A DNA stretch of 64,000 nt from Dromiciops gliroides (lineage: Eukaryota; Chordata; Mammalia; Microbiotheria; Microbiotheriidae), in NCBI RefSeq assembly GCF_019393635.1, contig NC_057866.1, forward strand, positions 2,418,223 through 2,482,222, read 5' to 3'. Made by a program: the position numbers and the translations under genes. Positions 21,847 through 54,030 of the stretch are shown piece by piece (position 1 is the stretch's first letter; each line of letters starts with the position of its first letter). The notes beneath the pieces were generated by a model. It did no database searches and was not told the origin of the DNA. It saw only the letters and a program-made list of their open reading frames with translations.

Positions 21847-21993
21847 GGGGCAGCTAGGTGGTGCAGTGGCTAAAGCACTGGCCTTGGATTCAGTAGGACC
21901 TGAGTTCAAATCTGGCCTCAGACAGTTGACACTTACTAGCTGTGTGACCCTGGGCAAGTCACTTAACCCCAATTGCCTCACTAAAAAAAAAAA
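21847..21993 (+). mobile_element. Marsupial tRNA-type SINE
   Basis: This is a full copy with an (A)n tail. The target duplication AAGAATGAAACTG lies at 21,834-21,846 and 21,994-22,006. Confidence 0.95.
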
Positions 21994-22082
21994 AAGAATG
22001 AAACTGAGGTCCAAAGACGGGGAGGGGCTTGACCCAGGCTACTGAGTGGCAAACAGAGCCCAGCACAGAGGCGTCATCTTTG

Positions 22083-22241
22083 GTTTTTGTTTTTATTTTT
22101 GTGAGGCAATTGGGGTTACGTGACTTGCCCAGGGTCACACAGCTAGTAAGCGTTAAGTGTCTGAGGCTGGATTTGAACTCAGGTCCTCCTGACTCCTGGG
22201 CCGGTGCTCTATCCACTGTGCCACCTAGCTGCCCCAGGGGT
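22083..22241 (-). mobile_element. Marsupial tRNA-type SINE (minus)
   Basis: This is a reverse copy with a T-rich left end and the target duplication GTCATCTTTG at 22,073-22,082 and 22,242-22,251. It faces the plus-strand copy 90 bp away, so the two can form an inverted repeat of about 150 bp. Confidence 0.95.
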
Positions 22242-30644: not shown

Positions 30645-33110
30645 AGGGGACCACCATACTGAGGCCAGGGCCAAGTTGGTCATGCTTCCTTCCCCTCCTG
30701 CTTGGGCATCTGACTTTCTGGTCTTTGGTGGGTTTTTACCACCTCCCCATGTGCCCATGTGCTCTGTGCCCCATGTACCCTGTGTGCCCTATATGCCCTG
30801 TGTACCCTGTGCCCATGTGTCCATATGCCCGTGTACCCCATGTGCCCATGTGCCCCATTGCCCACATTCCGCCGTCTCTCCCCTGTTAGAATGGAAGCAC
30901 TTTGGGGACAGGGGTTTGGGTTTGGCTTCTGTTTCTATGTCTAGCCCTTGGCACGGTGCATGACATTCAGTAAGTACTTAATGCATGATGTCACTTGCCT
31001 GTCTGAGAAATGAGGAGATTGGGGAACTGGGAGCTCAGGATGTTTGAGGTGACATCACTCAGTATATTGAAGACCCCTAATATTAGGGCATGGGATGGGA
31101 AGGAGAGAAAGCCAGGAGGGAGGAAGGCCCTGAACCCACTGAGGAAGGAAGGAGAATGTCTGGGGATCAATATATGTGACCCCCGGGATGTGGGCTGAAC
31201 GACAAGTTTGGAGTGAACCCCGAGGGAGGAGGGACTATTTAAAGGAGGTGGGAGAGGGAGAGCCCCAAAACGCACTGGGGAGCAAGGAGGGTGTGGGCTC
31301 CTGCACAATGGCCAGCAATTCAGGAGGAGGGAGAGGGAGGGTGGCCAGGGAGGCTCGTGCTTGGGAGAGAACCAGGGGATGAGAGGAGTGAGAGAGACCT
31401 TTGGAGACCAAAGGGAGCCGACCACAAAGACGGGCCGTGGGGCAGAGGGGCTGGGGCAGCAGGGGGGGGGCATGGGAAATGGTCGGCTCCAGGCTGGTCT
31501 TTAATGCCTTCCCTTCACTGGGCACAGGATAGACATGGAGGGTGGACTTGACCCGGATGAGGAGCCTCAGGTGTTGAAGAGAGGGAGGGACAGGACTTGG
31601 CATAAGGGCTGAGGGCAAGGCAGGAAGCATAAAGCCTGCAGCTTGGGAGCTTGGCGCCCTGGGCATCAGGAGAGTGGGTGGGCTGGGGGTGAGGAGGCTG
31701 AGTTTAGGGCTTTCAGGCTAGGTTCTGCAGGAGGTAAGGGATGCCATTCTCTGAAGAAGGGTTGTCCCCTTCTTCAGAGGTCTAAGGGGTTCCTGGACAT
31801 CCCTCCGGCCCCATGGCCTCCGCTTGCAGGACCCGCCAAGCTCTCCTGTTGAGAGCAGGTGATGAATGGGGTCTGCTGTTTATGGGGCCTCGTTGGCTGT
31901 GCTGTTTGGGGTTCGGGAGGGTGAGCTCCAGGGTGGGCAAAGGAAGAGAAGCGTGTGGGGCAAGGCCTCTGCCCTCCTGGTCGAGCTTCATGCCAGGCTC
32001 CGCTTGCTTCTCTTCCTGAGACAGCCTGCAAAGGCTGCCTGCGATGTTGCTGAAGTGCAGGCCCGATCAGGTCGTGTCCCTCCAGCACCAGTGTTCATCC
32101 ATCAGGTCTCCCACATCTTCCACCATCTGGGCCTGGCGCTCCTTGGGGCCCCTCCCCTGAAGGACCGGGCACTCCAGGCAGACCCATCACTCCCTGCCTA
32201 TGCCTCTCCCTCCCAGCCACCTCCTGCGCCCACCAGTCCCTCCCTCCAATGGTGTCAATGGCTTTCTATTGCCTAGCTGAGCCAGGCCCTTTCCCAGGAG
32301 GCCCCAGGACTCCTTCTGGTCCTTCTGAAGAGCGCTGTCCTCCGGCAGGGCCCCCCGCTCCTTCCTGGGCCTGCCTCCCAGGACCCAGCCGCACAAAACC
32401 GCCATTTTCTCTGGTCTTTAGGCTGTCCCTAAAATGGCTGTCCTGGTTCCTTCCTCCCCCAGCCTTCCAAGGCTTGGTGGCCCACCCAGCTCTCACTTCT
32501 CTGCAGAACACACTACTCAGACCTCGTTGCACTCTGTCCTGCCCCGCCTTGCTCCGAATTTCACTGGAATCGCCCTTGTCTCCCAGTGTCTCCTCCAGGC
32601 TTTCCAGAGCTGAGCCCCAGCAGCGGTCCCTGTTGGCACCCTCAATGCAGTAGGGGGCCCCAAAGTCCCCTCCTGATCTTTAGCATGTAATCTTAGCCCT
32701 TTTCCAGGGGGCTTTTGAGTGCCAGAGAGTTAATCCAGGGAGGGTAAATGGGCATTTAAGACTCTGCCTTAGAAAAATACCCCTCACCTAGAAGGTGATT
32801 AATCAAAACCAGTTGAGCTGAGCTTTCCATAAAGAACTAAGGGGTTGCTAAACACCAGCAATGGCCCACTTATTTCAGGCGTTCTTCTCCCCACCCCCAA
32901 GGTCTGGAACAGTCTGGAGGGATCTGACTTTCAGCAAGAGCACAGTGGGGTGCTTTAAGGAAGGGGGCGGGGTGGGGGAGGGGGTATGTCATTCCGTCCT
33001 CAGGGAAGGTGCAAGACCACTGGGACATTTGCAGAGGTGCTCTTCTCAATCTTGCCATTTCCCCTCCTTCCCCCTCCCTGCAAGGATCCCAGAAGGAAAA
33101 AGGGGAGCCA
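30645..33110. other. Non-coding flank 3' of IGF2
   Basis: No supported gene. It contains a degenerate minisatellite of CCCATGTGC/CCCTGTGTA units at 30,744-30,868. A single CTCF-like match GCAGTAGGGGGC lies at 32,647-32,658 (plus strand). Confidence 0.55.
30744..30868 (+). repeat. CCCATGTGC-type minisatellite
   Basis: About a dozen degenerate 9-10-bp units (CCCATGTGC, CCCTGTGTA, CCCATGTAC). Confidence 0.85.
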
Positions 33111-33938: not shown

Positions 33939-36524
33939 GGTGCCCAATTAATGCTGAGATTTTGCTGAGGCATCTGATTGGATAAAGTATTGCTTGATCA
34001 ATTTATTTTACTCTCCACCATTCCCATTACCAAGGCTTTTTAAAATGTGTCTGCCATCTATTGGGGGCTTAGCATGAGTCCCTGAAGGGCTCTCTCTCCA
34101 AGGACCCCATTGGGTTGGTTATTTTGGGGTCTCTAAGCTGGTTGGAGGAGGTTTCTGGTAGAGTGGCGGAACTAAAAGCCAAGGCGGGTCGGAAAAACCT
34201 TTCAGTTCAGTCACCCTACTCCCAACCTTGCAACTGGGGGCTTAGCCGCTAGACCCTTAGACAAACGGTTCCAGGGAAACCTGCTGACTGCACATGAAAT
34301 ACTCTGTCAGATCTCTGTGGTGTGACTGAATTGGTCAGGCATGATGTCTCCCATCAAACAACACTTCCTTGAGAGACTGCAGCAGTCTCTCTGGGGTGGA
34401 ATGGGGGAGGTTGGAAAGAGAGTTGGGGTTGGGAGGTTTCAAGAATGGAACTGTCTCCCCAAGTGCCTTTAGAACGGACAGGAAAGGAGAGCCACTTTTC
34501 TCCTCGCCAGAATGTTAACCTTCCTGCCTGTAAGCCTTCCAGCCCTTCTGGCATGCAGGCTGAGCCATGAGCTCAATCACCCCCCCCCCCAGGAAGTGGC
34601 CTCCCAGTCCCTTTGCAGGCACCCAAGAGCTCAGCTCTGCTCCCCGGTTCCTGACCTTGGAGGGACCAGTCCAAGGGCGGGTACCCCCCCAACTCTCATT
34701 GTCTGCCCCCTCCCCCTTACAAACATCCAGGATAGTAACAACACTTCACAAAGTCACACACAGATCAATATGGCCCCCACCGTGCTCTCAGCCCTGAGTG
34801 CTGGAGAAAGCAATAGAAGAAAAGAAAATGAAAAGAAAAAAGGCTTCCCAGCAGGCCTCGGGGGGGCCTCTTCTCCGTGAGAAGCAGACGGTGGAGGAGG
34901 CCTGGGCTGTCCCGCTATGAGACATCCCTATCCTGGTATCTCCGAGGGAGGCGCACGCTCCCTCCGGGCTGGCTCTCAGCTCCATTAAGGTTAATAAGAA
35001 ACAAATGATTATATGCGAATATATGAGGAGGCAACAAGACCCTCTGGAAGGGCTGGGCGACAGCTTCAGCCCCCTCCCTTGAGATGGTAAGGAGCATCTT
35101 TTGTATAAGCCTCCCCTTTTTTTGGGCTTTTAAAATTCTTTTAACTTTTTTTAAGCTTTTATTTTTAGTTTTATTATTTTTTTTTGGTTCAAAGCAAAAA
35201 CTATCCAAGCTGTTTGGTGCTTGCCTTAAAGCAAAACTACGTTGCCTTTAAAAAAAAAAGAGAGAAGGAAAAAATACCCCAGTGAGAAAAAAAGTTGATA
35301 TAAATTTGAAAATTTGCTCTCCTGGGTTTTAGACCTGCAATCTGTGATTCATTCATGACTCTCTCTGGCTTTTCGCTCTTCCAAAAAAGAAAAAAAAGAA
35401 AAAACAACAAAAAGAAAAAAAAAAACCAAACCCCCCCTCCCTCCCTCCCACCACAAATCCACACCCATTCTCTTCCTCCCACTGCTTCATCCCTGGCCTG
35501 CTCCTGCTGGCCTCCCCAGCCCAGTTTGGGGGAATGGGGAGCTGTCTTTGGAGAATAGCTGCAGGGACACAGGGATGAAGCTTCAGGTGTCTGTTGGGGG
35601 CCAAAGGGCCCTAGTTTCGAAGCCTGGGGACCTCAGGAGGCTTGGGAGGCCTCTCTTCCACCTGTTTTGGACCAATCTCATTCCTCGCTTGCTTGAACAT
35701 CCCTCTGTTACCAAATAAATAAAAGGAGCTGACCTTCCCCAAGGTTTTTGGTTGTTGTACGAGTTTGTGCCATTCTGTTCAGGGCATGTATTGGCTCAAT
35801 GGTGCACTGAGAAACAGACCAAAAGTGATGGGGGGGGTGAGGGGGACTGGCAGACGCCCCTCAGACCGGCACAGGAGGGCAGGAAGGTAGTTGACTGTCT
35901 GGCTATTTTTGGGGGGCATGATTGGGAGCCCAGGCGAGGGGCAGAGTTCTGGTTCTCACCCCGGCCTGCCCCCTCCCCCCCAGGAGGAGAGCTGGCCGGA
36001 GCGCACCCCCAGGAGGTAATGCCTCCTCGGTCAGGGCCTGCTGGCCAAATGGGAAGCGAAATGGTCCAAATCAAAAGGATGGAGCCTCTTGCCACCCCCA
36101 GCTCTGGCTTTTGGGGTCGCCCCAAGAAGAGGAATCCCACCCTTAAGAAAACTAGGCTTAAGGGAAGGAGTCCTCCCTCCTCCGCACACTCAGCCTGACC
36201 GGACCCACAACCTTTCGAGAAGGGGCAGGACCAGGGGAGGAATGGGGGGAGGGGACTAGAGGCGCTGGGGGTGGGGGCGGGGAGGAGGCCAGGGGACTGA
36301 TTGTTGGAGGTAAAGCACGATACAGAACGGCACTGACGAAAAATATGGAAAAAAAAGCTACCTGCTGTGTGAGAGAAGGGAGTTGGCGGGACCTCTGAGG
36401 GGGAAGGGGGAAGTCTAAGAGGATGAACCATCTGCCACAGAAGCCCAAGAATACCTGGTGGCTTCCAGATCCTGAGGGCGCCCACCCTGGGGTGTCTGCC
36501 GAAGTCTGGCAGCTCTTCATGGAG

Positions 36525-39515: not shown

Positions 39516-39676
39516 CGGGAGCACCATCATGGAGGCGGATAGGTCCCGCTCAGACTTGGCGGGGGTGGCACAGTAGGTCTCCAGCAGGGCCAAGTCACAA
39601 CTGCGGAAACAGCACTCTTCCACGATGCCGCGATTCAGGCGTCGGCTCACGCGGCTCAGGGGCCTGCCAGGAAGGC
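39516..39676 (-). CDS. IGF2: IGF2 coding exon 2: C, A and D domains, start of E peptide
   Basis: This exon has 161 nt, phase 1 to 0. The acceptor is TTTTTCCTTTAG|GC and the donor CCG|GTAAGT at 39,515-39,510. Joined to exon 1 it reads [26 protein letters not shown], then the A domain with cysteines CC...C...C (mature 50, 51, 55, 64) and the D domain ATPAKSE. Cleavage before the next Arg would end the mature hormone at 71 residues; the human form has 67. The four extra residues are Leu-Pro-Gly after Ser29 and one more in the C domain (LN where human has S). The AG used to skip Leu-Pro-Gly in human is absent: the codon is CCT rather than one ending in A, so no AG falls at that position. The E peptide begins [11 protein letters not shown]. 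Confidence 0.97.
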
Positions 39677-40682
39677 CTAAAGGAAAAAGAGCAGGCCCTT
39701 CAGCGCCGCTGGAGAGATGGGCTCATTCACAGGGTGAATGGGGGGACATTCACAGATGGGGAGACTGAGGCAGGGGAGCCCTCAAGAAACTGGAGCCCTG
39801 GCTGTCACCCACAATCTGGGACTCATCCCGCTTCGCTCCCTGCCATCTGCCACCTACTGTGTGCGGAGCCCTGGGCCGAGCGCTGTGGAGGCCGCCAGAG
39901 AGGAGAAGCCCTAACCCAGATGAAGGGTAAGAGATGAGCACAGAGGCAAAGGAAAGATGTGCCCAGCACGGTGCTTCTCCAGCTAAGCACAGCCCACTCC
40001 GTCAGGGTCTCACTTGCAGATAAAGCAGCCCCGAAGGAAGTCATTGGTTCTAGCTGCCTGATGTGGCCAGACCAGGTGGCATTATGCCCATTAAACAGAT
40101 GATCTGCAGTGACTTGCTCAGGACCCCCCAGAAGTCAAGTGCAGGAGGACAACTGGAAGTGAAGACCCCCAGACACCATAGCTTCTCATGAAGTTCAAAG
40201 GGTTCTGTAGTCCAGCCACTCCACTGAACAGAGGGGGAACCTGCGGCCCTGAGAGTGGAGGCATCTTTGAAACCCTGCGTCCAGACTCCTCACAGGGCAC
40301 AACAAGACACTGAGGCTCGGGGGAGCGCCTGCTCAGGGCCCCCAGGGTGACAAGGAGCAGAGCCCCACTGCTACAGCCCCCGGCCCCTGAGGACCGGGCT
40401 CTGACAGCATTTGGTGAGACCCCCGGAAGCTTCAGAAAATCTACAATGGGACCTGGCAGTCCTGGCTCCCCGGACAGCTCAGCTGTGACTTTGGACACCT
40501 CCACCACTGGAGTCCCAGAAAGCCATGGGAGGACAGTTCCCGGCTAGGCGGGGAGCTGTGCTGCCACTGCCACACAAGGGACTTCCTAGCTCTCTGGCCG
40601 CTCACCTGGTCCATTTCCCTGAGTGCTCTGGCCCTACTGACCGCCTGGGAGAGGCGCCTAATGGGGTGTTGCCAAAGAGGGC

Positions 40683-40758
40683 AAGGAAGAAGACGGGAGG
40701 GGAGGAGTGAGTCGCCTTAAACAATCCCCAATCCATCTCTCCCCCCATCCTCTCCCTC
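40683..40758 (-). ncRNA. MIR483: Intronic microRNA hairpin, miR-483 orthologue
   Basis: Positions 40,710-40,690 (minus strand) match the 21-nt human miR-483-3p with one substitution, at nucleotide 10. The seed CACUCCU is identical. The flank folds back: 40,756-40,731 pairs with 40,685-40,710. The lower 16 base pairs are continuous (G-U included), followed by one A-C mismatch and three more pairs, around a loop of about 20 nt (40,730-40,711). The 5p arm is purine-rich like human miR-483-5p but more diverged. It lies about 1 kb upstream of coding exon 2, in the same intron and orientation as human MIR483. It would be produced with IGF2 pre-mRNA or from its own promoter. Expression is not shown. 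Confidence 0.85.
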
Positions 40759-41396
40759 ACCCTCATCACTCCAGGGGCTAAGCTGGCAACAAGACTTCTC
40801 TCCCTAGATCTGATACTAGAGTAGATCCTGCCCTTCCCCGCCCTGCCCCCTTGTTCTGAAACTAAGGAAAGCGTGAATGTGGGAAGTGACCCTGAGGGAG
40901 GAGGAGGACTGAGGCCAGGCAGATGGGAGGGCATGGGAGGAAGGTCAGCAAGAGACAGAATGCCTTCACTACTAACACTGACCAGTGCCTGCCTTCTCAC
41001 CAGCAAGAGGGAGGGGAAGGAGGCAGGGATAGGGAAGAGCGGAGGCAGGCTGTGGAGCCCACGGGGGAAGCCTTGGACTCTTTACCCCACAATAGCGAGC
41101 CTGGCCCAGTGCTGTGCACACAGCAGGCGCTAAATCACTTGATCCAACCCCGCAGCCTTTATTAAGCGTCTACTGTGTGCAGAGCACTGTGCTAAGCACT
41201 GGGGGAGATGCTCAGAGAGTGACCAGACTGAGGTGTGGGATGCCCAGGGAGCCTGCAGGGAGGCGGGGGGGGGGGGGGCGGGGGATGGAGAGACGTGGAG
41301 TGGAAGGAGGGTGGGATGCAGCCCTGCCTGATGGAGGTCCCTTCTGGAGGAAGGCAGGCTCACTGGAACTCAGTCCTCTGCTGTTCACAGTTGCAC

Positions 41397-41427
41397 ACGC
41401 GCGCGCACGCACGCACGCACGCACGCA

Positions 41428-41485
<58 letters not shown>
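41397..41485. repeat. (GCAC)n(CA)n microsatellite
   Basis: Alternating CG/CA purine-pyrimidine sequence with potential to form Z-DNA, in the IGF2 intron. Confidence 0.95.
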
Positions 41486-41486
<1 letters not shown>

Positions 41487-42479
41487 CCAGACCTTAATCA
41501 AGCAAGGGGGGAGCAGCAGCAGCAGCAGACAAGGCCTTGAACATCAACAACCCTTCTCTCCTGCAAGAGCCTCAACAACAGAGACTGCCCTCTGGGATTC
41601 TTGCTCCTGCCTTTGCCGGCCTGAGCCCAAGCCCAGGAGTCTGGCTCTGCTCTCTTAATGCCCACCCCCCAAATCCCTGGCTCCTTTCACCCAGTATTAT
41701 TGTGTGCAGCCGCAGAGCCCAAGAATGTGCCCTGTCAGCACCAAGAGAGGGGAGCTCAATTCTTATCAGCTGTGGGGAAGGAGGAAACAGGGGCTGTTGT
41801 TTATAAAGAAGCCTGAGCCCTGCTTCCCCCCCCCTGCCCCCCCCTCCACTGCGACTTGTTGCCTCCTACCCATCTTGAAAGCACGGCAGCCAGGCTAGTT
41901 GTTCTAGGGCTTCCTCCCTACACACATGCACCGGGCTGGGCTCTGGAGAGGCTTGGCAAGGAGGGTCGTCAGCATGGGGGGTCCCTGTCCTTTGGGAGGG
42001 GTCCCTGCACGTTGTGGGAGCCAGGCCCTAACTCTGGGAGAGATGCTAAGTTGCCCAAGGTGTTCCCAGAGACCCAGTGGGATCCTATTCATCTGGGGAA
42101 TTGGGGGGGGAGGAACAGCAGAAAGTGATATGCCAGCTACCAATGCTGTCTCCCCTTTGGCCCATCAGAAATACTTCCAAGGTCTCGTAGGACAAGGAAA
42201 CTGAGTCTGGGGAAGGGAAAAGACTTGCCCCAAGTCCTACAGGCAAAAAGAGGCCAAGCCAGAAGGGGGTCCCTGGCCACTGCTCTGCCCATACTGCTCC
42301 TCTTCCTATTGCTAAGAGCTCACTTCCTGGTGCTTCAGAAGTCCCTCCATGCTCCATCTAAAGGCTGTGCCTTTGATGCACCTTAAACACCACCTCAACC
42401 CCATTTTACATGGGAGAAAATTCAAACCCAGGAAAGGAAAGGAACTTGCCCATGGTAAGAGAGGAGAAGAGACTAGAGG

Positions 42480-42772
42480 TGGGGGGCAGGGAGAGACAGA
42501 GAAAGAGAAGAGACACACAGACAGACAGAAAGAGTCAGAGACTGGGAGAGATAAAGAGGAGGAAGAGACACAGAGGGAGAGAGAGAGACTGGGAGAGACA
42601 GAAAGAGGAGTGAGACAGAAGGAGAGAGACTGGGAGAGAGAAAGAGGAAGAAGAGAAAGATATGGAAAGAGAGACAAAGAGTCAGGGGTTGGAAGAGATA
42701 AAGAAGAGGGAGGGAGGCACAGAGGGAGAGAGATACAGAAACTGGTAGAGAAAGAGAAGGGAGAGACGCAGA

Positions 42773-42831
<59 letters not shown>

Positions 42832-43665
42832 GGAAAAGAGAGAAAGAGGAGGGAGAGACAGAAGGATGGAAAAAGTGAAAGAGACAGAAACTGGGAGAGA
42901 CAAAGAAAGAGGAGACAGACACATAGAGGGAGAGACATGCAGAAACAGAGAGACGGAAACAGACTGAGTGTGCAGATTTCTCCGAAGGTCCAGCAGCATG
43001 AGCCCACTGCCCCTAACAGCCCAAGGAAGAGTGGGTGAAGACAGTCTAGCATCCGCCCAAAGGGGAACAATGCTAGAATCTGATTTTCCAGAACAGTCCG
43101 AGCAAGCAAAAAAAAAAAAAAAAAAGGAAGAGGGAAGAAGAGACAGACAGACAGAAACACCAGGTAGTGACCAAGACAAAGAGAGACTGAGAAGAGATAG
43201 TCTTCTTGGGAGTTATTTCCATAGGAGGTGAGACAGAAAGCTCAAAGAAACCCTTGGCACTAGGCAATGGGGAGGCAGAAAGGCAGAGATCAAGAAAAAC
43301 AGAGAGATATAGGCATAGACATAGATAAGAGGAGGCAGAGACACAGAGATAGGCGGACAAGGAAATGGAGACGGAAGGAGGAAAAGAAAGGCAGAGAGAG
43401 ATGGAGAGACCGAGACAGAGAGAGGTAGACAAAGAGAAGGGGACAGAAGCAAGTAGGGAGTGAGATGAGCCAGAGAAACAGATAAAGAGCCGGGGGGGGG
43501 GGGCAAGAGGAGGCAGAGAGACAGAGATGGGCAGAGAAAGAGATAGGGACAGGAGGGGGCACAGAGACGGCGGAAGAGGGACAAAGAGCGGGAGAGGGAG
43601 AGAGTGATAGGTGGCGAGAGATAGAGAAGGGCAGAGACAAGGAGAGAGGGAGCGCCCCTCCCAAG
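42480..43665. repeat. GA-rich polypurine tract in IGF2 intron
   Basis: About 1.2 kb dominated by GAGAGACAGAGA-type repeats with a pure (GA)n core at about 42,779-42,829. It is interrupted by about 250 bp of unique sequence (42,965-43,100 and 43,195-43,265). The transcribed strand is C/T-rich. Confidence 0.95.
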
Positions 43666-44544
43666 GCAAGGAACAAGACTAGCTTCGGTCCTGCTGCCCA
43701 GCCTTCCCCCTGGGCGTGTTCCCTCCCCAATCCTGCATCTCTATAGCGGCTCGGCAGGGGGCCAGGCTGGGGGCCAGGCGGGGTCCCGGCGGGCAGACAA
43801 GAAGGTGCCTCGGCTTCGAAGTCCCTCCCAGGGATTTTCTATTCCTGGGAGCAGCGGCTTAATGCCCGGGACGGTAGTCCGAGTCCGGCCCCTCATTTTT
43901 GAGAGAAAGCCTTTGAGGAAGTCCAGAGAAGGGCCAAGACTTGCCCAGTGACACAGTTAATGAACAACAGAGCCGGCTTCTCCTGCTGTGGCCAGCACTC
44001 GATTATCTGCTCCACTGTTCTTCCCTTCATCCTAACCTGAAGGTCTCAGAAAAACCGCCTGGCCGCAAACTCTCCCGGCACTAGCCAGGTGAGGTGCCCC
44101 CTTCCATTCAAATTCACTTGGAGAGCAGAGGTTAAATATCTAACAATAAGCCATCATTCCACACCAACCCGTCCCTCCGTCCTGCCGGTGGGGGGGGGGA
44201 TTCCCAGACCACTTTTTCATTTGGCTAACTTTCCCCTGGCTGAGGGCTAGGCAGCTCCGGAAGGGTGGGAGCCTGCAGGGCTCTGTGTGGGCGTCCCCCG
44301 ACCTGCAGAGTCTCCTCTCTTCCAAGAGCTGCAGCCCAGATCATTGGCAAACCGTTTGTACACATCTAAATACAATTCACATGTCATTTACAAAATCACT
44401 TACCTTGTCAGCAGACTCCTGCAGCCAGTTCCAAGTGGACAGACGGGAAAGTTAGCTACCTGAAGTCCTTCCATCCCATCAGATCACAGAGAGAGACCGT
44501 TCCCAGCAGTGGGTGGTCTTGCCCAGCCAAAAGCAGGGACATAT

Positions 44545-44547
<3 letters not shown>

Positions 44548-44590
<43 letters not shown>
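44548..44590. repeat. (TG)n microsatellite
   Basis: About 21 TG units, in the IGF2 intron. Confidence 0.97.
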
Positions 44591-44592
<2 letters not shown>

Positions 44593-44932
44593 TGTTTTTG
44601 ACTCAAAGTGGAAGCTCCCAGGAAGAAGACTGTTCTTTCTCCTCCTGCCTCCTACACCATGCCTAAGATAGGGCTTGGCAAACAATAGGTACTCACTAGA
44701 GAGCCTAGCTGAGGGGCTATGAAGCCAGCCCTTATCTCAGGGGAGACTCGGTCTTTCCCACCTATATCCAGCAATGAACCTACACGAATGGAGTATCCCT
44801 TGAACTGGAAAAACCTTGGGCCGAGTACCTGCCCATCTAATTCATCTTATTTTCTCCAGCCTAGCCCAGTTCCAGAGCACTCCACCAACCTGCCCTTGAC
44901 CGCACCCCACCCCTTCTGGGAGACCCACTTAC

Positions 44933-45089
44933 TGAAATAGAAGCCGCGGTCGCCACACACAAACTGGAGGGTGTCTACCAGCTCCCCACCACAAAGGGTC
45001 TCACTGGGGCGATAAGCAGCGGTGCAGCACGAGGCAAAGGCCAAAAAGGTGAGTGATAACAGCAGCATCTTCTTCATTGGGAAACCCAT
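44933..45089 (-). CDS. IGF2: IGF2 coding exon 1: signal peptide and B domain
   Basis: This 157-nt exon encodes the first 52 residues plus one base. It starts [16 protein letters not shown], a hydrophobic signal peptide of 24 residues ending CCTA, followed by the mature N-terminus AYRPSETLC. The B domain contains the conserved [20 protein letters not shown] with hormone cysteines 9 and 21. The acceptor is a strong pyrimidine tract ending CACAG immediately before the ATG, so this exon contributes no 5' UTR. The donor is TTTCA|GTAAGT at 44,932-44,927. Length and phase equal those of the human coding part. A second Met at residue 5 is also present, as in human (MGIPM). Without splicing the frame runs 28 more codons to a stop at 44,847, which is intron read-through. 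Confidence 0.97.
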
Positions 45090-48953: not shown

Positions 48954-49448
48954 CTAGACTGGGTCGCCCTTTGGGCGTCCCCTTGCGGACACTCCTGGCA
49001 TTGCACTACAGCCCCAAGAGACACGTTTGAGGGGGGGGGGAGGGCTGTTTACCCACAACAGGGATCTTTCCCCCTACCCCGCTCCCTCTGGGAAGACTTC
49101 CCGCAGCCCCACTATGCAGTTTGTGACTTTTGCCCCTTCCCGAGGGTGCCCCAAATTTCAAAGAACCTGGGAGAGGGTGCAAGAAGGACCCAGAGTTTCA
49201 GAGACGCTAGGAGAGAGGGAGGAGAGCCCCTGGGCTTGTGTGCGCAGCCTCCAAGCTGAAAGGGAGTTCCCCCAGCCGCCCCGTCTGTCCTGTCCTGTCC
49301 TACGACGACCTCCGCGCACTGCGCGAAGTCCCCGGGCCGCGCCAGTCCCACGGCAGGGTGGGGACGGGGGCCAGACAGACGGACCGAGGGGCCGGTGAGC
49401 GGGCTGACGGGCCCCGGGGCCGGTCAGCCTGCCGTCTGGGGGGCTTAC

Positions 49449-49571
49449 CTCAAAGCTGCTCCTGCTACTCCCCACCTCCTTGCTGCGGGACTGTTGTAGG
49501 GTGCTGACACTCGCGTCCGCCGACCCTGAAGCGACTCCTCTCGCCATGTTCCCTCGCTGACGAAATCTCAT
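49449..49571 (-). CDS. Candidate in-frame N-terminal extension of prepro-IGF2
   Basis: From ATG 49,571 the frame is open for exactly 41 codons to the donor. Splicing to the acceptor at 45,090 places the next codon on the IGF2 ATG. The peptide begins MRFRQRGNMARGVASG and ends RSKEVGSSRSSFE; it is hydrophilic, Ser/Arg-rich and not a signal peptide. The Met at residue 9 (49,547) has a strong context (A at -3, G at +4) and would give a 33-residue extension. Human IGF2 has a known N-terminally extended isoform made from a different leader, with unrelated sequence. Translation here is unproven, and a different donor would break the frame. Confidence 0.35.
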
Positions 49572-50505
49572 CGTTGGTCGAATTTTGGATTCGGGTCAGG
49601 CTGGTTCTGGCTTTTTATATTGGGGGCGTAGTTAGTTTTTTTTGTCTTTTTGTTGTTTTTTTTTATATTCGAGTGGACGGGCTTTGGGGCGGGGCGGGTT
49701 GACTTGTTGTTTTTGGATGAGTTTGGGGAGATAGTGAAGAGGGTTTTGAAGAGTAGTGGACAGAAGGAGCAGAAGACAGTCAGACAGAAAGACAGTGCAA
49801 AGGCGACAGAGAGTGAGCGAGAGCGGCGAGCGAGCGAGCGAGCGAAGCCAGAGGGGGCAGAGGGGGGAGAGAAAAGGAGACAGATAGAGAGGGCGAGGGC
49901 AGAGGGTGCGGGCAGACAGGGGCGGGACGATCAGGGCGGGGAGGACCGGGGGGGGCACTTAGGAAGGGGAAGGGGGTGAAAGGGCGAAGGGTGCAAGGGG
50001 TGGGGAGGGAAGACAGCAATTTAAGCTAAGGGCAGGGGAAGGGGACCAAACTACCTCCCACGTCGGGGGACGCCCTGTACTAGGCTCCCCGAAAGCCTGA
50101 ATCCTCCGCCTCCGGAGTCAGGCTCAAAAGAACATGGGCTGCAATTTGGGGGATACTGTGGGGCGGACTGAGGGCGGGGAAGGAGATGAGACCTCTGGAG
50201 GCGGAACCTGCCTTTTCCCTTTAAGGGAGGTGGACTGGGATGAAAGCTGAGGTAGTTAAGGAAAAGGCAGTACGGCGTTCCGCACAGAAGCCCCAATTAG
50301 CAGCAAAAAAAAAAAAAAAGGAGGGGGAAGGGGAGGGGGAGGGGGAAGGACGTTGATTGACGGAGGGGCGCCGGGAGCCTGCAGGATGGAAAGTGCGGCG
50401 GGGGCAGCGCCCGCGTCGTCGGATGGGCTGGGAAGGCGGCGGCGACGCGAAGGTGGTGAGTCGACGCTGCGAATCCCCGACTACCTGCTCCGTCCAGGAG
50501 GAGAC
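49449..50505 (-). other. IGF2: IGF2 leader exon from the P3-like promoter
   Basis: This is an inferred 5' leader exon ending at a strong donor, TTTGAG|GTAAGC (49,448-49,443). Only three ATGs occur on its transcribed strand. The first, at 50,135-50,133, opens a three-codon upstream ORF ending in TGA at 50,126-50,124. The others, at 49,571 and 49,547, are in frame with the IGF2 coding exon. A second TATA-like box (TATAAAAA, 49,619-49,612) lies inside the exon and could start a shorter leader near 49,587 sharing the same donor. The 5' end is inferred from the TATA box. Confidence 0.5.
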
Positions 50506-50530
50506 AGACAGATCCGTCCTCCCGCCGTCC

Positions 50531-50645
50531 TTTTATAACGGTCTGAGAGAACCCGCTCCGATCGCTGGATGTCACCACTGGCGGCAGGCCCGACCCAATG
50601 GCCTGGAAGAGGGTTATCTCGCTCCGCCCCCCGGCTCCGCCCCGA
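50531..50645 (-). promoter_or_regulatory. P3-like IGF2 promoter
   Basis: On the minus strand, TATAAAA lies at 50,537-50,531. An inverted CCAAT (ATTGG) lies about 60 bp upstream at 50,599-50,595. GC boxes (GGGGCGGAG and GGGGGGCGGAG) lie at about 50,645-50,623. All sit in a CpG-dense block. A start near 50,505 gives a leader of about 1.06 kb to the donor at 49,448, close to the length I recall for the human P3 leader (about 1.2 kb). Confidence 0.65.
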
Positions 50646-50699
50646 AAACCGAGCCAAGTTGGGGGGGAGGGGGTAAGGGGAGGGGGCCCCCAGAGCTGG

Positions 50700-51460
50700 G
50701 GGGGGGGGAAGCGGGGATAGAAATTTTGTAAAGTCAAGAAATAAAACAATGCAAAAATGAAAGAAATAAAGAAATCGGGAAAAGAAAACAGAGAGAAGAA
50801 AAAGAAAAGGCGAGGAGAAAGACAAGAAAAGGGGGAAAGAAATAACTAAAAAAGAAAAAAGAAAGACCGAGAAAAGAAGGAAGGAAGGAAGAAAAAAAGG
50901 GGAGGAAGGAAGGAAAAAACTGAAAAGGGAAACAAAAAAGGGGAAGATAGGTTAGACAAGTAGAAAATAAGGAGGGAATGGGAGAGAGAAGGTAAAGAGA
51001 ATAAGAAAAAAATGACAGGAAGGAAGGAGACTGAAAAGAAGAGGAGAGGAACGGAAAAAAAGGTAGAGAAGGGAAAGAAGGAAGGGAAGGAGGGTAGAAA
51101 AGAAAACAAGGAAGAAGGAGGGGGAGAAGAAAATTTCAATAAAGTTTTTCCGTAGCGCATTTGGAAACGCTATTCTTTTCTTTCTTTTTTCTTTTGTTCC
51201 TTCTTTCTTCTTTCTTCCTTCCTCTTTCCTTTCTTCTTTCTCTCCCTTTTCCTCTTTTCTTTCTTTCTCTTTCTATCTTTCCTTCCTTTTTTCTTCTCTT
51301 TCTTTAGTCTTCTTTCTTTACTTCTCCTTCCTTCTTTTCTTTTCTTTCTTCCTTTCCTTCTTTTCTTTCTTCCTTTCCTTCTTCTTCTACTTCTTCTTCT
51401 CCTCCTTCTTCTTCTCTCTCTCTTTCCCTCCCTCCTACCTTTTCTTTTTCTCTTCCCTGG
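50700..51460. repeat. Opposed polypurine and polypyrimidine tracts
   Basis: About 430 bp of A/G-rich plus strand (50,700-51,135, GAAAGAAGGAAGG-type) is followed, after about 35 bp of mixed sequence, by about 290 bp of C/T-rich plus strand (51,170-51,460, TTCTTTCCTTCC-type). The arms are roughly self-complementary. Confidence 0.9.
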
Positions 51461-53198
51461 AGAAGGATGGAGCAGAGACGCTACAGGGAAAGGTCGCGGC
51501 TCATCTCAGGTACTGGCGTGAGTTGGCGGGCTGGCACTGTCGGCTCAGCTTAGAGGGCTGTAGGTGACCGGGCATGAAGAAAGGTGCTCAGGGTCTTTGA
51601 ACAGTACAGTCCGTCTCGAGGTTCCCAGACTCAGGAGTCATTGTTTTCTCCTGCCTCCCCAAATTTAGCGTTAGGGGAAAGGATGCGCCATCTCCCCGCA
51701 AGCGCGTGGGGAGTTTCAGTTGTAGCCCGGGACTTGCCCTTCCAATCCCGCGCCCTGTTGGTTTCGGCCGCAAAGTCATACTCGCCCCGGGTTCATTTTT
51801 TTTTTCCTCCGAAGGTGTGGGCAACATAGCCCGGGAGGTGCCAGAGTAACCACCGAGCGCTCCCTTCCCTCAAGGTGCCACCTGCCCTTACCGCTGCTAG
51901 GGCGCTGCACCCGTTTCCGCCTAAATAAACCAAGTGGAGGCTGGAGCAGAGAAAAGGAACCATTGGCCCAATGTGCGAAATTCTTACACCTCCAGAGAGA
52001 GGTCCGGCTCCGGCTGAACGCACCACGCGCAGAGTCCGGCCGGGCTCCAATTGCGGGCATCTGGTTCCCTCTCCCGTCAAGCCAGCCCTCTCTCGGCCCG
52101 GGGTGACGAAGGGTTAGCGCGCGCTTTAGAGCCAGTGACCCTGCCCGAGTTAGCAAAACCCTCTGCCCTTCCCTTCTCGGCTTGCGTGTTTGTGAAAGTG
52201 CGCGTGTCTAGGCGTACTCCCAGGCTCTCTGCTATTCTCGCAATCAAGCCTCGCATATCCCCGCTTTGCCGGCGTAGATGCGGGCTCGGCCCCCTAAGCT
52301 AGCAAAGCGAGGTGTGTGTATAGGTGTATGAGGCGGCGAGGTGGTCTGGGGGCGCGAAGCCGGAGAGCTGGGCAGCGCGCAAAGAGCGCAGACCGGAGCC
52401 CGCTTGGTAACTGGACTCGCGGAAGTGAAGGGGCTGTGGGGCTCTGTTCCCTGTTTTCTGTGGCCTGGGGTAATTCTGATAACCGGAGCCCGGAGTCCCC
52501 CGAGCTGCTCCCGAGGGGCTCCGAAGATCCCCGGGCTCTGGGCACAGCAGCCGCTAGCCTCGGCGGGTCTTGTTTTCGAAAGAGAAAAGGAGGACGCACA
52601 GAGAATTGTTTTTCCCAACCAATTTCTCCAAACCCGAAGCGGGGGGCGGGGTACAGAGAAAGAGGCAGCCTGGGATCCACAAAGAAAAGTCTGAGTAGTG
52701 GTCCCCAAACCGGCTGCAGCCGCCGCCGGGACCTTCAGCCCTCAATCCACCGGCCGGGTGGGTGGGCAAGTGCAGCTTCAGGGCTCAGCGGGTGAGCCGA
52801 GAAGGCAAACTGGGAGAGAAGCTGCGCCAGCTGGAGCCTGGAGGGGAACAGGTCCGAAAATGTCGCGGGGGGCCCCCAAACTCCGCCGACGATCAAATAA
52901 AGCCGCCTGCCACCCTTAGACCCCAACGCCGGGAGCGCCCCTAGCTAATCCCCTTCCTAATAAAGACACAAAAGAAAGCCCCAGGAGGTGAGAGGGCAAG
53001 CTGTCTGGGTGCAGAAAAAAGGGGCCACCAGAAGTGTTGGGGGTCCCTGCGGGCCAGAGGGCCCCCGAGAACCCAAAACCCAGGAAAAAGCCTACCCCAG
53101 ATTTTGCGAAGGTTGTGGCGCGCTGAGGTTCTACCGAGGCTTTGAACGCTTAATTGCTCCTTCGTTATCCTCTTCCGTGGCAAATAAACAGCGAAATG

Positions 53199-53225
53199 TG
53201 TGTGTATGTGTGTGCGTGTGTGTGC

Positions 53226-53273
<48 letters not shown>
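53199..53273. repeat. (TG)n microsatellite
   Basis: TG repeat with CG interruptions in its left part, inside the upstream CpG island. Confidence 0.95.
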
Positions 53274-53275
<2 letters not shown>

Positions 53276-53900
53276 TGTAGGGGGGCGGCGCGGGGACAGA
53301 GGACGGGGACAAGGGACAAGGGAGCCGCGAGTCGTGCGATGGGAAGTAGGGCTTGTGAAGGAGACAATACGCGTCTCCTCAGAGCCGGAGCCTTCCACAC
53401 GGAAGGCCAGTCAGTCCCTGGGTGCTCAGTGAAGCCGGGGGGCGGGGGAACGGCTTGGGAGGCCAGGGACTCCCCGGCTGCAGGCACCTCAAGCGGCCGG
53501 GGTCACTCCGTCTTGACCTTTCGAGAGAGAAGCGAGGCTAGGGGCGAGTCCAGGTTCATCCCTGCAGAAAATATAGGAAGATGAGGGGAGGGAAGCGCGC
53601 GCGGGTGGACCAGGGGTGCCAGTGGACAGGGGTACCTCGGGGTTCCTTCTTTCTCCTCCGCAAAGAGCCTTTCTGAGGGAATGCAACCTAGAATGGCCGC
53701 GGGGCAAAGTCCGGGCTCGGCTTTCAAGGCAAATATTCAACCAGGCACAGTTAGTCCTTGGGACTCCAATCGAAAGAAAGGGACAAAGTTACCTTTATAG
53801 GATTGTGTAACTGACCTGGGAGAGGGTGGCTTCTCCCTGGGGAGGCAGGGACGGTGCGGGGACAGAGGGGCTTGAAGGAGGGACCAGGCGGCCAGAACGC

Positions 53901-53942
53901 AGCGGCGGCGGCGGCGGTGGCGGCGACGGCGGCGGCAGCAGG
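53901..53942. repeat. (GCG)n trinucleotide run
   Basis: About 14 GCG/GGC-type triplets with a few substitutions, in the upstream CpG island. Confidence 0.9.
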
Positions 53943-54030
53943 GCAGATGCAGGGAAGGAAGGGAGGGCGAGAAGGAGCGAACGCGGCAGCTCTCCCCGGC
54001 GCCTAGGCGTTTTCCCTTTGCCGAAAACAA

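Follow-up and report, generated by a model that had tools for sequence, protein, structure and literature searches.

A probable MIR483 orthologue within the IGF2 gene of the marsupial Dromiciops gliroides, with a conserved 3p strand and a diverged 5p strand

In the mouse, Mir483 sits in intron 6 of Igf2, and main-text passages of a 2024 study describe the primary sequence and predicted structure of mir-483 as highly conserved in eutherians and marsupials, not in monotremes, and suggest that the appearance of Mir483 coincided with imprinting; the summary of the same paper nonetheless speaks of 'placental mammals' (PMC7617298). According to those passages, the mouse 3p strand acts on the Igf1 3'UTR via AGGAGUG, growth is restricted by miR-483 overexpression, and knockout mice show no obvious phenotype (PMC7617298). 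The 5p strand has been given a role of its own: miR-483-5p is cited in passages of PMC4186326 as raising IGF2 transcription through the 5'UTR, and this paper also covers the opossum and shows mir-483 in IGF2, in passages that do not join the two. Elsewhere, miR-483 has been called mammal-specific in the heart, in passages silent on its expression in the one marsupial of that study (PMC7931589), and passages of a 2016 study report an RT-qPCR signal for dgl-miR-483-5p in Dromiciops gliroides itself, obtained with forward primers designed from mouse sequences (PMC4835794). The terms mir-483 and mir483 are absent from the main texts of papers on the tammar genome (PMC3277949), tammar IGF2 promoters (PMC3405008) and imprinted microRNAs (PMC7564603), and our literature search did not find the name 'mdo-mir-483'.

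Here we analyse a hairpin within a 64,000-nucleotide stretch of Dromiciops gliroides DNA (the window), which we consider very probably to be the marsupial MIR483 orthologue, an intronic microRNA gene of IGF2 (Table 1). The minus strand of the window carries a complete IGF2 coding sequence, in which three in-frame exons join into 555 bases that encode 184 amino acids and a stop codon, both introns starting with GTAAGT and ending with AG. The predicted protein matches two Pfam families above the cut-off, Insulin at 58.3 bits and IGF2_C at 90.1 bits. Among the best 120 of 722 protein matches, the top two are both marsupial, namely Petaurus breviceps (98% identity) and Macrotis lagotis (95%); Sarcophilus (92% identity across 71% of the query) and Antechinus (99% across 58%) rank lower in the same set.

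The locus has several further features. The B-C junction of the protein reads SLPGRP via the splice at coding exon 2 (39,650-39,676), which presumably exceeds the usual human form in length. The stretch 49,501-54,000, upstream of the coding exons, is CpG-rich, with observed/expected values of 0.66-0.97 in eight of nine 500-base bins, and perhaps corresponds to promoters and leader exons. A GA-rich low-complexity tract lies at 42,491-42,862, in the intron that separates coding exons 1 and 2, and purine skew is strong across 42,001-44,000.

Table 1. Features of the IGF2 locus and its intronic hairpin, in window coordinates.
Feature	Position	Strand	Remarks
IGF2 coding exon 1	44933..45089	-	encodes the signal peptide and the greater part of the B domain; donor GTAAGT follows
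IGF2 intron, coding exon 1/2	39677..44932	-	5,256 bp, GTAAGT...CTTTAG; hosts the hairpin; boundaries from splice signals and frame
IGF2 coding exon 2	39516..39676	-	from frame and splice signals
IGF2 coding exon 3, including stop codon	37817..38053	-	E peptide
Predicted primary miR-483 stem-loop	40677..40764	-	contains 39 of the 42 base pairs in the 101-nt fold
RF03778 mir-483 end-to-end match	40682..40758	-	48.8 bits against a gathering score of 60
miR-483-5p equivalent	40730..40751	-	agrees with the Rfam consensus in 14 of 22 columns; the rest are 7 substitutions and 1 consensus gap
Terminal loop region	40711..40729	-	diverged from the Rfam consensus
miR-483-3p equivalent	40690..40710	-	20/21 against human, with an intact seed at positions 2-8; ends of the mature strand inferred by comparison with human

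The hairpin is sense to IGF2 and lies between coding exons 1 and 2, with exon 2 starting 1,006 bases further on. From the exon numbering, we take intron 6 of mouse Igf2 to separate the first two coding exons, and human MIR483 is presumed to occupy the equivalent position. A preliminary description of this DNA had placed the hairpin in the same intron and orientation as human MIR483, and our annotation of the gene agrees, given this presumed equivalence to the human and mouse intron.

The 3p strand closely resembles known miR-483. Its sequence, UCACUCCUCCCCUCCCGUCUU, has the seed CACUCCU and differs from human miR-483-3p solely by a U to C change at position 10, which bears out, at 40,710-40,690 of the minus strand, the earlier claim of 20 identities in 21 positions with an intact seed. 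At least one of the two human strings used for comparison, miR-483-3p and miR-483-5p, appears in published papers; across the 21 bases compared, the human 3p string is identical to the consensus of Rfam family RF03778. The next-best matches to human 3p anywhere in the window reach 17/21 on the minus strand and 16/21 on the plus strand. Retention of a 3p arm together with its seed over the marsupial-eutherian separation would be unlikely without constraint.

Such a match could in principle be an accident, with a GA-rich tract pairing against a CT-rich one to give a chance hairpin that resembles miR-483-3p. Purine and pyrimidine tracts are indeed present in the IGF2 intron (e.g., 42,491-42,862), and the window has no shortage of strong hairpins; however, 20 of 21 matching positions were reached in none of 200 order-2 Markov minus strands (largest value 18, in two) and in none of 1,000 simulated introns spanning 39,690-44,940 (largest value 19, in one), and the match falls in the very intron and orientation expected for MIR483. 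An accidental resemblance of this kind is barely credible, and we regard it as close to refuted.

The preliminary description had also proposed a hairpin here, to be checked by folding 40,670-40,770 of the minus strand. This 101-nt segment folds strongly, at -56.9 kcal/mol, compared with a mean of -38.58 for shuffled versions (z of -4.96), none of the 200 shuffles being as good, and the antisense strand of the hairpin region is much weaker (-34.3 against -56.9 for the sense strand). The hairpin itself was thus correctly called, while its pairing over 19-20 positions was understated, as the fold holds 42 pairs in a single stem when the lower stem is counted. Among 12,782 overlapping 101-nt folds covering both strands of the whole window, nine (the target included) have an energy at or below that of the target, and 157 have at least 34 pairs in one stem; strong or long hairpins as such are not rare within the window. 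When 40,601-40,820 was compared with the window by blastn at E up to 1e-3, the self-match alone was returned.

Motifs associated with Drosha processing are also found around the stem. When the 5p end is placed by alignment with the human strand, a UG lies at -14/-13 and CNNC motifs start at +8, +17, +20 and +22, the usual positions being -14 for UG and about +16 to +18 for CNNC. The CNNC is not specific here because the stretch is so C-rich and has several other starts (+8, +20, +22).

In covariance-model searches the hairpin matches mir-483 below the gathering score. At the gathering threshold, Rfam yields no match in the whole window. In a local search with lax settings, sense-strand mir-483 was top by bits among the best 50 matches listed (48.8, with the next family at 33.9) and spanned the whole model. 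A lax search of the whole window returned 17 matches at E up to 0.01, among which MIR2646 (89.4 bits) and MIR2118 (50 bits) exceed mir-483 at 48.8 and mir-493 is nearly equal to it at 48.4; MIR2646, mir-1271 and MIR2118 also have better E-values. These competing matches look structure-driven. Because unrelated hairpins of the window equal or beat mir-483, the Rfam score is not taken as proof, and since 48.8 lies below 60 we claim no Rfam-grade match; orthology is drawn from 3p identity and gene position, not from the fold or the covariance model. In sum of likeness, the Dromiciops locus shares with human and mouse MIR483 (RF03778) a 3p strand identical at 20 of 21 positions, an end-to-end match to the model, an IGF2 intron and the sense strand, whereas it differs in a 5p strand that agrees in 14 of 22 columns and has two seed changes, in a diverged loop and in its sub-threshold score (48.8 against 60).

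Two inverted repeats in the window bear on these competing matches. A second intronic microRNA at 41,101-41,195 was considered and not accepted, as mir-493 scores 48.4 bits against a gathering score of 68 and mir-1271 scores 44.4 against 80.5; this hairpin matches mir-493 on both strands, at 48.4 and 38.1 bits, under the cut-off. The surrounding sequence (41,099-41,197) is an imperfect inverted repeat with 37-nt arms that are 81% complementary and with sub-threshold matches to mir-493, mir-1271 and mir-325 on both strands. To our eye it looks like the tail of an old MIR/L2-type repeat, and such tails are a known source of microRNA hairpins. Further away, 21,847-22,235 is a long inverted repeat with 157-nt arms that are 87% complementary; the repeat of which it is made also occurs elsewhere in the window, and this structure probably explains the MIR2646 match.

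Conservation of miR-483 between Dromiciops and the Rfam consensus is lopsided, with the 3p strand kept and the 5p strand diverged, including two of the seven 5p seed positions. Twelve pairs of the mature duplex were scored (5p positions 1-12 against 3p positions 21-10), which leaves the 5p substitutions at 17, 20 and 21 outside the count. Four of the twelve pairs differ from the consensus. Three of these (5p positions 2, 5 and 9) are altered on the 5p side only, with G-U or U-G pairing kept; the fourth, 5p12-3p10, is an A-C in the consensus register, broken through the single 3p change. The minimum-energy fold instead pairs C10 of the 3p strand with the adjacent G (5p position 13, an A in the consensus) and leaves the A of 5p12 as a bulge. 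In the lower stem, all seven of the pairs examined form in the window sequence, compared with six of the seven in the consensus.

The diverged 5p arm also raises the possibility of a relic, that is, a locus that is MIR483 by descent but yields little or no mature product in Dromiciops gliroides. The agreement of the 5p arm in just 14 of 22 columns, the diverged loop and the Rfam score under the cut-off are what such decay could leave behind, but the strong fold (z of -4.96), the kept 3p seed and the pairing kept at all three 5p changes in the twelve-position stretch opposite the 3p strand all speak against it, and we consider loss of function very unlikely. The lopsided conservation suggests that the 3p strand is the ancestral working strand. 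This is what a conserved guide strand and a freer passenger strand would look like, judging from one locus set against one consensus. It is possible to go further and propose that, in therians as a whole, target constraint acts on the 3p strand of miR-483 only and the 5p strand is a drifting passenger; we put this forward tentatively, and lean somewhat against it. If it were true, the functions reported for eutherian miR-483-5p, such as raising transcription from the IGF2 fetal promoters, would be later additions outside the ancestral IGF2-miR-483 unit. The asymmetry between 5p and 3p gives a simple way to test which strand was the ancestral regulator.

With respect to earlier work, the preliminary description had suggested an origin of miR-483 before the marsupial-eutherian split, on the premise, put forward with caution, that the microRNA has often been treated as eutherian; the poor conservation of the 5p strand did not figure in it. 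Both the orthology and the caution about the label were fair, the latter because the 2024 summary keeps to 'placental mammals', although the novelty was not: a marsupial miR-483 is correct and already known from 2024, the passages of PMC7617298 making the same claim, with sequence and predicted structure kept in marsupials and not in monotremes. What the present locus offers is confirmation from raw sequence that IGF2 and miR-483 were already paired before marsupials and eutherians separated, which is also the depth assigned to IGF2 imprinting. The lopsided conservation of the two strands was not met in the main-text passages of PMC7617298, whose alignment is in the supplement, and we do not claim it as unreported. 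The dgl-miR-483-5p report (passages of PMC4835794) likewise concerns a miR-483 strand in a marsupial; it employed mouse-based primers, whereas the 5p strand found here differs from the Rfam consensus in eight of 22 columns, which makes the RT-qPCR signal weak support for a 5p strand in marsupials.

We infer the expression, processing, strand choice, targets and imprinting of miR-483 in Dromiciops gliroides along the following lines. Drosha/DGCR8 would cut the primary IGF2 transcript within the intron, Dicer would release the duplex, and the 3p strand would load into Argonaute, leading to repression of mRNAs with AGGAGUG sites. The output of miR-483 would be expected to follow IGF2 transcription, and also its imprint, should IGF2 in the marsupial behave as it does in the mouse.

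Repression of IGF2 by its own microRNA through a 7-mer 3'UTR site is not supported, since AGGAGTG is not enriched (13 occurrences on both strands of the window against 19.04 expected) and none occurs on the sense strand between the IGF2 stop codon and 2,991. The IGF2 sense strand has three such sites in all, with first bases at 48,996, 48,387 and 2,991, and no 8-mer 3p site is found on the sense strand of the window. The weaker GGAGTGA occurs eight times on the sense strand, the first past the stop codon being at 32,193; the first AATAAA/ATTAAA past the IGF2 stop is at 35,175, which may not mark the end of the 3'UTR. One of the 3p seed matches (48,996-48,990, minus strand) lies just downstream of the CpG-rich stretch 49,501-54,000 and upstream of the coding exons, in a window where the count of such matches is no higher than expected by chance. 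Passages of PMC7617298 describe a predicted 5'UTR site that is conserved in wallaby and not in opossum.
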